Program-made: the position numbers and the translations under genes
The notes under the pieces: model-generated
What the model saw: the letters and a program-made list of their open reading frames with translations, nothing else
The model's database searches: none
What the model was told of the DNA's origin: nothing
In this document: positions 3,627-33,336 of the stretch, piece after piece
Layout: the number at the start of each line of letters is the position of its first letter
Position numbering within the stretch: the stretch's first letter is position 1
IMG/VR virus record: IMGVR_UViG_3300042526_000248
Location: 1 to 40,940 of that record
Length of the DNA: 40,940 bases
Strand: one strand, 5' to 3'
Origin: a virus

Positions 3627-4118
3627 ATGAAAGAAGTATGGGTAGATATAACTGGATATGAAGGGTTATATCAAGTGAGTAGTTTAGGAAGGATAAAATC
3701 ATTGAGGCATGGTAGAAATGCAATTATGAAAAATGGAACTAGTAGACAATACTTAAATGTTTCACTTTATTTAGGTGGTATTTCAAAAACATTTGTTGTT
3801 CATAAATTAGTTGCAATGGCTTTTTTAAATCATAAACCAGATGGAACACAAGATTTAGTTGTAGACCATATTAATGATGTTAAAACAGATAATAGAGTTG
3901 AAAATTTGCAAGTTATAACAAGTCGTGAAAACGTATCCAAAAAACAAGGCAATTATACAAGCAGATTTAAAGGTGTATGTTGGCATAAAGCTACTGGAAA
4001 ATGGAGGGCTAAATTAAGTGTTAAATATAAATCTTATTGGTTAGGTGTATTTAATACAGAAGAAGAAGCAAGTGAAGTATATCAAAATAAATTAAAAGAA
4101 ATATTATGCAAGGATTAA
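3627..4118 (+). CDS. HNH homing endonuclease (NUMOD4-HNH-AP2)
   Basis: 163 residues in three modules. NUMOD4 is at about 5-26 (W5, then ITGYEGLYQVSSLGRIKSL). The HNH core has H59 (VVHKLVA), D80-H81 (VVDHIND) and N93 (VENLQ). An AP2-like DNA-binding tail lies at about 112-158 (FKGVCWHKATGKW, then YWLGVFNTEEEA). The family makes site-specific double-strand breaks and spreads as free-standing mobile genes. It sits between small genes and overlaps the MazG start by 13 bases. It is a clear paralogue of the endonuclease at 26692-27207; both share the FLNHKP and DNRVENLQ stretches. Confidence 0.93.
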   Translation: MKEVWVDITGYEGLYQVSSLGRIKSLRHGRNAIMKNGTSRQYLNVSLYLGGISKTFVVHKLVAMAFLNHKPDGTQDLVVDHINDVKTDNRVENLQVITSRENVSKKQGNYTSRFKGVCWHKATGKWRAKLSVKYKSYWLGVFNTEEEASEVYQNKLKEILCKD

Positions 4119-26597: not shown

Positions 26598-26605
26598 TAA
26601 ATTTA
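26598..26605 (+). promoter_or_regulatory. -7-like box before RNA element at 26612
   Basis: TAAATTTA differs from TAnnTTTG in the last base. A start near 26612 would coincide with the first paired bases of the RNA structure (26615). Confidence 0.35.
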
Positions 26606-26611
26606 CAACGT

Positions 26612-26690
26612 ATTGTCGCTGATACATTAAGAACTTATTAAATGCCTACCATGACGAGACAGCGACCTCTGATTGGTAGGCTTTTTATTT
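26612..26690 (+). ncRNA. Pseudoknot-forming RNA with U-run end
   Basis: Two interleaved stems. GTCGCTG (26615-26621) pairs with CAGCGAC (26660-26666), 7 bp. GCCTACCA (26644-26651) pairs with TGGTAGGC (26674-26681), 8 bp. TTTTTATTTT follows. The second stem alone would act as a terminator; the first stem locks across it, giving an H-type pseudoknot. Eight bases separate the 5' arm of stem 2 from the 3' arm of stem 1, as at 30091-30180. Either a short RNA or an elaborate terminator for the tail operon. Confidence 0.6.
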
Positions 26691-26691
26691 T

Positions 26692-27207
26692 ATGGAAAAA
26701 GAAATATGGAAGGATATACCAAATTGGGAAGGTATGTATCAAGTAAGCAACATAGGAAATGTAAAATCATTAGCAAGAGAAATTTTAAAAAATGGTAGAC
26801 ACCCATTCATTTGTAAAGAAAAAATAATAAAAAATTGTATAAATACGAGTGGTTATAATTATGTAGGTTTATCAAAAAACGCTAAAACTATTTCACGTAC
26901 AGTTCATCAATTAGTTGCAGAAGCATTTTTAAATCATAAACCTTGTGGAATGAAATTAATTATCGACCATCTTAACAATTGTAAATTAGATAATAGAGTT
27001 GAAAACTTACAAATAGTTACTAATAGATATAATACATCAAAAGATATTAAAAATAAAACATCTAAATATACTGGTGTAAGTTGGGAAAAAAGACGAAAAA
27101 AATGGGTAGTAAGAATAAAAGTTAATAAAAAATATTTGCATTTAGGATATTTTAATTGCGAACTATCCGCACATTTAGCATATCAAAATAAATTAAAAGA
27201 ATTGTGA
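26692..27207 (+). CDS. HNH homing endonuclease (NUMOD4-HNH-AP2), second copy
   Basis: 171 residues. NUMOD4 is at about 6-27 (W6, then NWEGMYQVSNIGNVKSL). The HNH core has H72 (TVHQLVA), D92-H93 (IIDHLNN) and N105 (VENLQ). The AP2-like tail is KYTGVSWEKRRKKW to HLGYFNCELSAHLAYQNK. It starts at the T-run of the RNA element and ends before an unrelated structural gene, a free-standing mobile gene inserted at a module edge. It is a diverged paralogue of the 3627-4118 endonuclease; both end in YQNKLKE. Confidence 0.92.
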   Translation: MEKEIWKDIPNWEGMYQVSNIGNVKSLAREILKNGRHPFICKEKIIKNCINTSGYNYVGLSKNAKTISRTVHQLVAEAFLNHKPCGMKLIIDHLNNCKLDNRVENLQIVTNRYNTSKDIKNKTSKYTGVSWEKRRKKWVVRIKVNKKYLHLGYFNCELSAHLAYQNKLKEL

Positions 27208-30076: not shown

Positions 30077-30084
30077 TATATTTG
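30077..30084 (+). promoter_or_regulatory. -7 box of the 30091 RNA element
   Basis: TATATTTG is an exact match. The expected start near 30091 coincides with the first base of the RNA structure. No good -33 box is seen. Confidence 0.5.
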
Positions 30085-30090
30085 TACCAT

Positions 30091-30180
30091 CGAAGCGTAG
30101 GAAACTCCGAAAAACATTTTTTATAACATAAAGTCAAGCAACAAGGTTTTCCTACGCACCTTCGTTAGCTTGGCTTTTTT
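30091..30180 (+). ncRNA. Pseudoknot-forming RNA of about 90 nt with its own promoter box
   Basis: Stem 1: CGAA+GCGTAGGAAA (30091-30104) pairs with TTTCCTACGC (30148-30157), then a 3-base bulge, then TTCG (30161-30164): 14 bp. Stem 2: AAGTCAAGC (30131-30139) pairs with GCTTGGCTT (30168-30176), 9 bp with one G:U, running into T to 30180. The arms alternate (1,2,1,2), so both can form only as a pseudoknot. Eight bases separate stem-2 5' arm from stem-1 3' arm, as at 26612-26690. No reading frame fills it. Confidence 0.68.
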
Positions 30181-30224
30181 ATTTAACTAAAAGTTACTGG
30201 TAATCTAAAAACCTTTATTGTATT

Positions 30225-30425
30225 ATGGTAAGTTTAAAATTCAAATGCTCATTAATTTCAAAAGATTTTATTGAAATAGAAGCAAACAATCAAAGAATTG
30301 AAATCGTAATAGTTAATCATGATGATTTTAATCAAGAACACGAAACTTGTGGTGTAATACTAGATAAGTTTACGGCTATTAAGCTATCTAAAGAACTTCG
30401 TAAACAAATTGCTTTATTAGATTAG
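30225..30425 (+). CDS. Hypothetical 66-residue protein
   Basis: A beta-type start (MVSLKFKCSLISKDFIEIEA) and a helical end (FTAIKLSKELRKQIALLD). It lies 2 bases before the replication gene, in the same operon. It starts 44 bases after the RNA element. No family recognised. Confidence 0.7.
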   Translation: MVSLKFKCSLISKDFIEIEANNQRIEIVIVNHDDFNQEHETCGVILDKFTAIKLSKELRKQIALLD

Positions 30426-30427
30426 TT

Positions 30428-31195
30428 ATGGAAAAAATGCAATGGTTTAAATTCTCTATTTCGGAATGGAAGATGGGAAAAATTCAAAAATGTACTCCAG
30501 AAGCTAAATCTTCATTTATGGAATTATGTTGTTTGTACTGGATAAATGAAACTAAACTTTCTATTGAAGATGCAATTATTGAATGTGATGAAGACAATTA
30601 TAAAAATCTTTTATCTAAGAAAGTAATTAAAGAAGTTGGTGGTTTTATAAAAATTTATTTCTTAGATGAACAGTTTGAAAATGCCTTAGAAAAATCTGTA
30701 AAAGCCAGAGAATCAGTAGAAAAGAGGTGGTCAAAACGTAATACGATAGTATTAGGAACGAATAACGATAGTAATACGACCGTATTACGACCGAATTACG
30801 ATAGTAATACAGAAGAGAAAAGAAAAGAAGAGAAAAGAAAAGAAGAGATATATACTCCTCCGTCGTTCGATTTTAAAAAATCTCTTTTGTCTTTTGGTTT
30901 TGATTCTAAATTAGTTTCTGAATGGATAAAAGTTCGTAAAGCTAAAAAACTTACAAATACAGAAACTGCACTAGATAAATTCATAAAGCAAGTTGAACTT
31001 ACTGGATTAGATAGAAACTTAGTATTAGAAAAATGCGTTGAAAAAAGTTGGGGTGGTTTTGAATCTTCTTGGATGACAAACGTATCTGTACAGCAAAGCA
31101 ATAATCAATCTAATGTTTTAGGTGTAACGGCAGATGGTGAAGTTGTAACAGACCAATATGTTTATAGTGTTTACAAACAAATGGGGAAATTATGA
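30428..31195 (+). CDS. Replisome organiser-like replication protein, 255 residues
   Basis: The N-terminal winged-helix domain, KMQWFKFSISEWKMGKIQKC to about residue 95, resembles DUF1376/phage replisome-organiser N-domains (WFK..I.eW). The linker at about 103-140 is encoded by DNA repeats and reads NDSNTTVL, NYDSNT, then EEKRKEEKRKEE. The C-terminal domain (about 145-225) has DSKLVSEWIKVRKAKK and SWGGFESSWM, found in DnaD-like/initiator C-domains that load the helicase. Followed with overlap (31192) by a RecA-fold helicase, the usual initiator-helicase pair. Iteron-like repeats inside the gene fit an origin-binding role. Confidence 0.75.
   Translation: MEKMQWFKFSISEWKMGKIQKCTPEAKSSFMELCCLYWINETKLSIEDAIIECDEDNYKNLLSKKVIKEVGGFIKIYFLDEQFENALEKSVKARESVEKRWSKRNTIVLGTNNDSNTTVLRPNYDSNTEEKRKEEKRKEEIYTPPSFDFKKSLLSFGFDSKLVSEWIKVRKAKKLTNTETALDKFIKQVELTGLDRNLVLEKCVEKSWGGFESSWMTNVSVQQSNNQSNVLGVTADGEVVTDQYVYSVYKQMGKL
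30743..30808. repeat. Six phased 11-bp repeats inside the replication gene
   Basis: Units start at 30743, 30754, 30765, 30776, 30787 and 30798. Five begin ACGA; the unit at 30754 is degenerate. Typical units are ACGATAGTATT, ACGATAGTAAT and ACGACCGTATT. A period of 11 bp is one helical turn and not a multiple of three, so the repeat is not explained by the protein sequence. It looks like an iteron array for an origin-binding protein. Confidence 0.8.
30811..30848. repeat. 38-base purine run made of a 15-bp tandem repeat
   Basis: AGAAGAGAAAAGAAA occurs at 30811-30825 and 30826-30840, with a partial third copy. It follows the 11-bp array at once. The pairing of iterons with an asymmetric easily melted stretch inside the initiator gene recalls the lambda O origin. 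Confidence 0.85.
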
Positions 31196-32184
31196 TTTTA
31201 AAAGACGGACATAGCACTAAATACCTATTTGATTATAGGGATGGTAAAATACCACAAGGGCTTGGATTAGGTATTTACTTAGATGATTATTTAAGATTTA
31301 AAAGAGGTCAATTAAATTTTATACTTGGACATGATAACGTAGGTAAATCTTACTGGATGTTATGGTATTTTCTTGCTTTGGCAACTAATCACAATCTTAC
31401 ATTTACTTTGTTTATGGATGAAAATTCAGCACAAAAAGCAATGAGAGATTTAATTAGAATGTATTTTGGAAGAAAGATAACTGAACTTACAAATTCTGAA
31501 TTACAAGTAGGTATAATGAAAATTGAACACCATTTTAAGTTTGTAGATAATCTTAAACGATATACTCCAGAAGAATTATTAGAGGTATTTAAAACAAGTA
31601 AAACGGACGCTTACTTAATCGACCCTTTCAACGGATTAAAGACAGCTTTATCATATTCTAGTAATTACGATGTTTTAAATGATTTAAAAATGTTTTGTAA
31701 GACTACTAATGCTACGATATACATAAATGCTCACCCAAGTACAGCAAGTGGACGTAGACAAGCTGTATATCCACAAGGACACACATGGGCTGGACATATT
31801 ACACCTCCATTTAAAGATGATATTGAAGGTGGTAAAGCATTTTCAAATAAAGCAGATGATTTTATTATAATTCACAGACTTATCGGTAGTGAAACAATGA
31901 AGTTTGAAACACTTGTGGAAATTAAAAAAGTTAAAGATACGGATGATGGTGGAGGTCAAACAATGCTTGAAAAACCAATAATGTTTAATTACAATTCTGC
32001 AAACGGATTTAAGTGTGGAGGTATAGATTGCATTAAGCACCCTAAAACAAGTTATCAAGCACCAGTAGAACTTCCAATACCAAAATATCCTCCAGTAGCA
32101 AGTTTTTACGAAGCAGGGGTTAGAGAGAATGAACCAGAAAGAATTATTAACGACCCTGACAAAGGGATTCAATTTCCATTTTAA
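31192..32184 (+). CDS. RecA-fold replicative helicase (DnaB/RepA type), 330 residues
   Basis: Walker A is at 46-53 (GHDNVGKS), Walker B at about 139-144 (DAYLIDP, D144). A following phrase YINAHPSTASGRRQAV has the sensor-like His of DnaB/AAA_25 helicases. The C-terminal IEGGKAFSNKADDFIIIHR and VEIKKVKDTDDGGG are family-typical. No N-terminal primase domain is present and length is short, so it is a helicase-only protein that relies on host primase or another gene. It overlaps the initiator gene by four bases. Confidence 0.85.
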   Translation: MILKDGHSTKYLFDYRDGKIPQGLGLGIYLDDYLRFKRGQLNFILGHDNVGKSYWMLWYFLALATNHNLTFTLFMDENSAQKAMRDLIRMYFGRKITELTNSELQVGIMKIEHHFKFVDNLKRYTPEELLEVFKTSKTDAYLIDPFNGLKTALSYSSNYDVLNDLKMFCKTTNATIYINAHPSTASGRRQAVYPQGHTWAGHITPPFKDDIEGGKAFSNKADDFIIIHRLIGSETMKFETLVEIKKVKDTDDGGGQTMLEKPIMFNYNSANGFKCGGIDCIKHPKTSYQAPVELPIPKYPPVASFYEAGVRENEPERIINDPDKGIQFPF

Positions 32185-32901: not shown

Positions 32902-33336
32902 ATGAGTTGGAAAATTAATAAAGATGGTAAACAAATGGAGTTTATAGAAGAAATGATACCAGAAAATGCAGTTGGATTTGTCTACTTAATGACAGCAGTA
33001 ATAGATGGTAAATTCGTTAAATACATTGGTAAAAAAAATTTCTATGCCGATGTAAAGACTAAGTTGGGTAAAAAAGAAATGCCTACCGATAAAAGATTAA
33101 AACAATACAAACGTGTAAGAAAGTTCACTTACAAAAATTACTATAGTTCTAATGAAGTTCTAAAAGCACATAAACAATCTGGAGGTGAAATACAACGTAT
33201 AATTATTGAGATATGCTACTCCAAAATTTCATTAACTTATTGCGAGTGCAAACATTTATTTATCAATGAGGTACTAGAAGATGAAAGTTATTTGAATAAT
33301 AATATACTTGGAAAGTTCTATAAAACAACAAGTTAG
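32902..33336 (+). CDS. GIY-YIG-like nuclease, 144 residues
   Basis: GFVYLMT and VKYIGKKNFY reproduce the spaced GIY...YIG strands. Downstream come a basic stretch (KRVRKFTYKNYYSSN), a possible catalytic Arg at IQRIIIEIC, and the conserved ECKHLF with Glu, then YLNNNILGKFY, where an Asn closes the fold. Phage members of this group are annotated as putative nucleases. It may act in host DNA breakdown or recombination. Not obviously a homing gene, as it is embedded in an operon. Confidence 0.65.
   Translation: MSWKINKDGKQMEFIEEMIPENAVGFVYLMTAVIDGKFVKYIGKKNFYADVKTKLGKKEMPTDKRLKQYKRVRKFTYKNYYSSNEVLKAHKQSGGEIQRIIIEICYSKISLTYCECKHLFINEVLEDESYLNNNILGKFYKTTS

Follow-up and report, generated by a model that had tools for sequence, protein, structure and literature searches.

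Immediately upstream of the replication genes of the viral genome IMGVR_UViG_3300042526_000248 (40,940 nucleotides (nt), positions 1 to 40,940; hereafter the window) lies a short stretch with two pairs of interleaved complementary arms (30077-30182, + strand). This locus raises the question of what fold its RNA adopts, whether the fold recurs in other phages, and what it does ahead of the genes that it precedes. An initial annotation had described a pseudoknot RNA at this site, with a second in the same phage, and had suggested a family of small regulatory RNAs or anti-termination devices. We report here that both elements belong to a phage RNA family in which the loops of two hairpins are predicted to kiss, and that this fold stands in the 5' leaders of replication and other phage genes, where it may gate their transcription.

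Fold of the two window elements

Direct reading of the element at 30 kb bore out the parts initially described. CGAAGCGTAGGAAA (30091-30104) pairs with TTTCCTACGC-acc-TTCG (30148-30164) over 14 bp with a 3-nt bulge, AAGTCAAGC (30131-30139) pairs with GCTTGGCTT (30168-30176) over 9 bp, and the interleaved stems are followed by a T-run and preceded by a TAnnTTT-type box. The inner arms are separated by exactly 8 nt (30140-30147). The element opens with a -7 promoter box of the TAnnTTTG type, TATATTTG, read from the sequence at 30077-30084. In Flavobacterium psychrophilum this box occupies -12 to -5 (PMC9723704), a geometry that places the predicted transcription start at A30089. The 5' hairpin (HP1, 30090-30110) has a stem of TCG (30090-30092) and CGA (30108-30110), which is weak in this allele, and carries in its loop the 5' arm of the kissing stem S1, GCGTAGGAAA (30095-30104). 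Beyond an A/T-rich linker comes the terminator-like hairpin HP2. Its outer stem S2 is formed by AAAGTCAAGC (30130-30139) and GCTTGGCTTT (30168-30177), and an inner stem (30143-30162; AAGGT 30143-30147 with ACCTT 30158-30162) closes an apical loop that holds the S1 3' arm, TTTCCTACGC (30148-30157). A T6 tract (30175-30180) gives the element its terminator-like end (30168-30182). The complementarity between the HP1 and HP2 loops amounts to 10 bp, and the S1 duplex by itself to -14.4 kcal/mol.

The second element was confirmed at 26598-26686 (+ strand), with the same order of parts and again 8 nt between the inner arms. Its promoter-like box, TAAATTTA (26598-26605), predicts a start at G26610. 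HP1 (26610-26625) is closed by GTAT and ATAC around the loop tGTCGCTG, and the S1 5' arm GTCGCTG (26615-26621) is complementary to CAGCGAC (26660-26666) in the HP2 loop. HP2 with its tail (26644-26686) comprises S2, GCCTACCA/TGGTAGGC (26644-26651/26674-26681), an inner stem of GAG (26656-26658) and CTC (26667-26669), and a T5 tract. The internal loop of HP2 (26652-26655/26670-26673 in the window, and likewise in the related loci L044, L058 and L042) can often form tandem G-A pairs, as TGAC/TGAT or TGAT/TGAT, which might bind a protein or make a tertiary contact.

In both elements S1 and S2 interleave as in an H-type pseudoknot, and to this extent the initial reading stands. Since both S1 arms sit in hairpin loops closed by stems of their own, the element is, on the evidence of its sequence, better named an intramolecular kissing loop than a plain H-type pseudoknot.

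Such an arrangement is rare by chance. A descriptor of interleaved stems with a T-run matched the window twice, both times on the + strand and at the two elements, compared to a single match in 60 dinucleotide shuffles of the window searched on both strands (0.017 per shuffled window). A promoter-anchored descriptor that did not demand a T-run returned the same two elements and no other. Nested folding of the two was of moderate significance (z of -2.8 and -2.1), as expected of a method that is blind to the kissing helix.

Conservation of the fold and replacement of the sequence

The first relatives were drawn from neighbours of initiator genes in IMG/VR and from named phages. Searched with the T-run descriptor, 189 such loci yielded 56 distinct matches, 53 of them on the + strand of the locus, mostly the strand of the gene. 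The promoter-anchored descriptor gave 83 matches compared to 5 in shuffled sequence of the same total length, figures to be read with the tuning of the thresholds on the first matches and the shared ancestry of the relatives in mind. The highest score in shuffled sequence was 56.5, and the window elements scored 57.0 and 67.5. Removal of duplicates at the score used left 63 elements, which are the base for the counts of T-tracts, S1 strands and open reading frame (ORF) starts given below.

Pairing was retained across these relatives. The mean stem weight of HP1 was 12.0, versus 9.0 ± 0.3 when flanks were swapped between elements, and that of the HP2 inner stem was 8.4 versus 4.8 ± 0.5. Because S2 is misaligned when the whole set is aligned with MAFFT, changes of individual pairs were counted in one subgroup, A4. 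Compensatory changes were found at 5 of its 7 kissing pairs, and in the whole structure both partners had changed in 15 pairs, compared to 6.4 after shuffling, although the A4 sequences are related and these changes are not independent events; with slid partners the pairing collapsed. Within the allele class of the window, GCGTAGGAAA/TTTCCTACGC is replaced by GCGTGAGAAA/TTTCTCACGC through matched changes in leaders that are otherwise nearly identical. A covariance model (R1) built of HP1 and HP2 alone, with the kissing helix left out, found elements that the descriptor had missed; of 16 distinct ones, 15 had complementary loops (6-9 bp), compared to 12% in a swapped-loop control. Elements found without use of the loop-loop helix thus nearly all possess it, and relatives that keep the terminator stem alone, which the initial annotation had named as a counter-case, are not the pattern observed.

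The kissing helix was found to span 6-10 bp across the family, with small loops that are often of 8 nt with 7 paired. G-U pairs made up 1% of S1 versus 9.6% of S2, a trend only, as the scans capped G-U pairs. The spacing between inner arms ranged from about 5 to 13 nt, such that the exact 8 nt noted at the outset describes the two window elements and is not a rule of the family. In two loci (L027, at 3888, and L028) a variant was observed whose linker, from HP1 to HP2, contains an additional hairpin.

The sequence that forms this fold is replaced freely. Between the window and a close relative (L010), the initiator gene is 98% identical over its first 384 nt and the leaders are 51% identical, with shuffled sequence at 50%. 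The 63 elements contain 43 distinct kissing strands, and two elements residing in the same genome never shared one (13 genomes or contigs compared). In an alignment of the elements (A1), conservation is concentrated in the promoter box, in the T-tract and in parts of the A-rich linker, with no conserved aptamer sequence of the kind that marks a riboswitch. The comparison with Rfam proposed earlier was run on release 15, Flavo-1 included, and gave no covariance-model match (E<=5 for the window, E<=1 for the loci of ten relatives). The claim that the fold is kept and the primary sequence is not was therefore upheld by this result, by the covariation and by the relatives in many Bacteroidota phages.

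More than 60 distinct phage elements were found, in phages of Flavobacterium, Cellulophaga, Polaribacter, Tenacibaculum and Parabacteroides among others, and a TAnnTTTG box lies within 26 nt upstream in most of 52 elements. Named phages with an element upstream of the initiator include FCL-2, morran9-1, P12002L, JQ, snork6-1, elemoA, phi10:1 and Parabacteroides PD691P3; none was detected in phi38:1 and Riemerella PT33, both covered in part, or in Elizabethkingia TCUEAP2. The gene annotated in morran9-1 for a 48-residue hypothetical protein (morran91_gp042, MN812219.1 14157-14300) overlaps the element there and was probably called in error. Matches in four non-Bacteroidota loci (L160, L161, L176 and L181) were taken as chance. 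Model R1 gave only two weak matches in 155 bacterial genomes (L290 and L291, the former without the kissing architecture), which argues only weakly for absence from host genomes because the model favours one subgroup and has low sensitivity. Loci on genome contigs with relatives of the initiator yielded no convincing element.

Leader position and downstream genes

In 62 of the 63 elements an ORF starts 8-50 nt past HP2 on the same strand (within 20 nt in 29), and a TAnnTTTG box between hairpin and gene was found in none of the 62. The elements are therefore 5' leaders, and a free-standing small RNA gene as the sole reading is ruled out. The earlier suggestion of a family of small regulatory RNAs was thus right as to the family, whose members are leaders of initiator, ERF and homing-endonuclease genes rather than genes of their own. 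The median distance from the box to HP1 is 5 nt which, with the promoter geometry of F. psychrophilum (PMC9723704), places the start of HP1 at about +1/+2. A terminator-grade T-tract was present in 50 of the 63 elements though the search did not demand one. A full kissing fold followed by a poor or absent T-tract was observed in L093, L095, L096, L066 and L098. Given the leader position and the lack of an intervening box, the downstream genes must be read through HP2, barring an unrecognised promoter. The order of promoter, leader and terminator-like hairpin before the gene, with no second promoter, is that of an attenuator at the level of sequence.

Initiator genes are the most regular neighbours. 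Counting distinct loci with enough upstream sequence, an element was found within 480 nt upstream of 54 of 57 initiators of the Bacteroidota-phage types (9/10 of the window type and 45/47 of the morran type), compared to 4 of 34 for relatives of the P12002L type, which are mostly outside Bacteroidota. At the same loose thresholds, 49 of 600 random windows of the same loci matched, real elements included. The initiators behind the leaders belong to different PHROGs. Second elements precede homing-endonuclease genes in the window (26692), snork6-1, G003, G024, G025 and G022 (GIY-YIG), and an ERF-like gene in G004 and G005, several of these gene names being based on a reading of the N-terminal sequence only.

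In the window, the 30 kb leader is followed 47 nt after the hairpin by a small ORF of 66 amino acids (30225-30425, +), then by a gene for an O-like replication initiator or primosomal protein (30428-31195, +; PHROG 6451, 678) and a helicase-like gene (31192-32184). The winged-helix label given earlier to the gene upstream was not confirmed. Between leader and small ORF lies a second conserved stretch (30193-30222), similar in L053, L002, L022 and L058, that can form a hairpin (GGTaatct..aaaACC or CGGTT..AACCG; alternatively TTGCTTGTTTTTATAAAACATTCA) and is possibly a translational operator. The second leader is followed at 10 nt by the ATG of a NUMOD4/HNH/AP2 homing-endonuclease gene (26692-27207, +). 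Three homing-type endonuclease genes were observed in the window (3627-4118, 26692-27207 and 32902-33336; two NUMOD4/HNH/AP2 and one SegE-like GIY-YIG). Only that at 26692 has a kissing leader, and a third element sought before the HNH gene at 3627 was not found. At 2240-2320 of L254, a locus from a Bacteroidia metagenome-assembled genome, an HNH-like gene and a relative of the initiator are preceded by a hairpin element of another kind, promoter-proximal and with a T-run (AGAGGGG..CCCCTCTTTT).

Possible attenuation and alternative functions

The fold, kissing helix, leader position and terminator-like end demonstrated by these sequence comparisons would be accounted for by a leader attenuator that gates replication and homing-endonuclease genes, a function to which we assign a probability of about 0.55. 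Transcription would start at the TAnnTTTG promoter, with the first 1-2 nt already in HP1. After the A/U-rich linker HP2 would form, pair through its apical loop with the HP1 loop over 6-10 bp, and end in the T-tract just before the start codon. HP2 would then act as an intrinsic terminator, with the initiator, ERF protein or homing endonuclease made only from read-through transcripts, and cotranscriptional kissing would set or regulate this read-through as a gate on the timing or dosage of phage replication genes. Kissing is expected to stabilise the finished terminator or the RNA, with regulation arising from whatever breaks or pre-empts it. With loops this small the kissing helix and both stems can be present at once, which favours a stabilised terminator, relieved in some other manner, over a switch between mutually exclusive states.

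Several points weigh against an attenuator of this kind. The terminator hairpin and the kissing helix are sterically compatible, unlike the two states of a classical either/or switch. The T-tract is weak or absent in 13 of the 63 elements (including L098, L066, L093 and L096), and the function conserved may thus not be termination in all of them. The difference in kissing sequence between co-resident elements speaks against their recognition by a single shared regulator. Promoters further upstream could fire, or the hairpin could act on translation.

The replacement of the leader beside a nearly unchanged gene (51% vs 98% identity in the window and L010), together with 43 kissing strands among 63 elements and none shared by co-resident ones, is also what would be seen if the terminated leader of 80-100 nt were itself the effector, pairing loop to loop in trans with nascent leaders of the same type to control copy number or the specificity of superinfection. 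The position before replication genes is as in phage P4. It is likewise as in I-complex plasmids, in which RNAI-SLI kissing sets incompatibility (PMC10724649). We consider this function unlikely. Intramolecular kissing should usually outcompete pairing in trans, the same leaders also precede homing endonucleases, and antisense -7 boxes were not enriched (0.95 vs 0.86 per kb). Antisense control of the I-complex type was rejected on the same background density, which refers to the -7 box type and leaves room for other promoter types. Lysogenic immunity is made unlikely by the absence of a tyrosine integrase from the 16 records searched. In its broadest form this alternative is RNA-only control of replication in Bacteroidota phages, the leader being both a gate and an allele-specific inhibitor in trans, with a swap of the kissing loops changing which co-infecting phages cross-regulate, like plasmid incompatibility groups; this too we regard as improbable.

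Unlikely as well is a 5' cap-like stabiliser or translational control, in which HP1 and kissing protect the mRNA or govern the access of ribosomes, and the U-rich tail serves initiation rather than termination. The location of HP1 at +1/+2, the start codons 8-20 nt from HP2 (29/62) and the minority of elements without a good T-tract agree with it. HP2 so near the AUG would, by contrast, hinder initiation, and a T-tract directly after a GC-rich hairpin in 50/63 elements, undemanded by the search, is not what it calls for.

An antiterminator acting in cis, as put RNA of phage HK022, would bind RNA polymerase, in the case of put its beta' zinc-binding domain, and confer resistance to downstream termination. 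The elements resemble put in being promoter-proximal, of two stem-loops and about 70-100 nt, and ahead of early phage genes (PMC9378689). We judge this function quite improbable, as put RNAs share sequence similarity and act on terminators elsewhere (as described in PMC9378689), whereas sequence is not conserved here and the elements themselves end in a conserved T-tract. That the S1 arms are protein-bound inverted repeats in DNA with an incidental RNA fold, as their nearly pure Watson-Crick pairing (G-U 1%) might suggest, is very unlikely given the G-U pairs common in S2 (9.6%) and HP1, the location of the S1 arms in the loops of two hairpins, and the unrelated S1 sequences within one genome.

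Comparison with known systems

Across a wide range of Bacteroidota phages, one of them a Parabacteroides phage of the gut, a short RNA nearly unconserved in sequence thus precedes nearly every tested initiator gene. No description of the family was found in a literature search that did not cover preprints and most subscription papers, and it has apparently escaped sequence-based RNA searches. If a kissing-loop attenuator is correct, it would represent a new way to gate phage replication and provide candidate leaders for gene-expression tools in Bacteroidota. Why the fold persists while its sequence changes can be tested directly where a replaced leader adjoins a 98% identical gene.

Bacterial transcription attenuators and riboswitches share with the elements the order of promoter, folded leader, terminator hairpin and gene; unlike these, no conserved ligand pocket or leader peptide is evident, and kissing and terminator can coexist. 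With the immunity RNAs of phages P4 and P1, a replication or antirepressor operon likewise has a leader RNA that contains complementary segments, and its transcription is terminated prematurely; in P4 the leader RNA acts in trans on the operon of a superinfecting phage. In the present case no integrase was found in the 16 records searched, the complementary segments are hairpin loops within one 90-nt unit, and the putative terminator is of the intrinsic and not the Rho type. In the I-complex plasmids ColIb-P9, IncB and IncK, kissing of hairpin loops between RNAI and SLI controls the replication initiator (PMC10724649). The position of hairpin-loop kissing before a replication initiator gene is shared, but the plasmids need the antisense RNAI and control translation, whereas here no excess of antisense -7 boxes was seen and a terminator-like hairpin stands before the gene. 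A similar layout is that of HK022 put, an RNA of about 70 nt with two stem-loops that acts in cis near the promoter of early phage transcripts, and whose members share sequence (PMC9378689). By that description, and with no alignment against put itself made, the 43 S1 strands among 63 elements set the present RNAs apart, as they keep the fold without the sequence, kiss loop to loop, and carry a T-tract before the start codon. We regard the elements as a new family of RNAs, and as a new variant form of leader control in phages, distinct from put, from the I-complex leaders and from the P4/P1 immunity RNAs.
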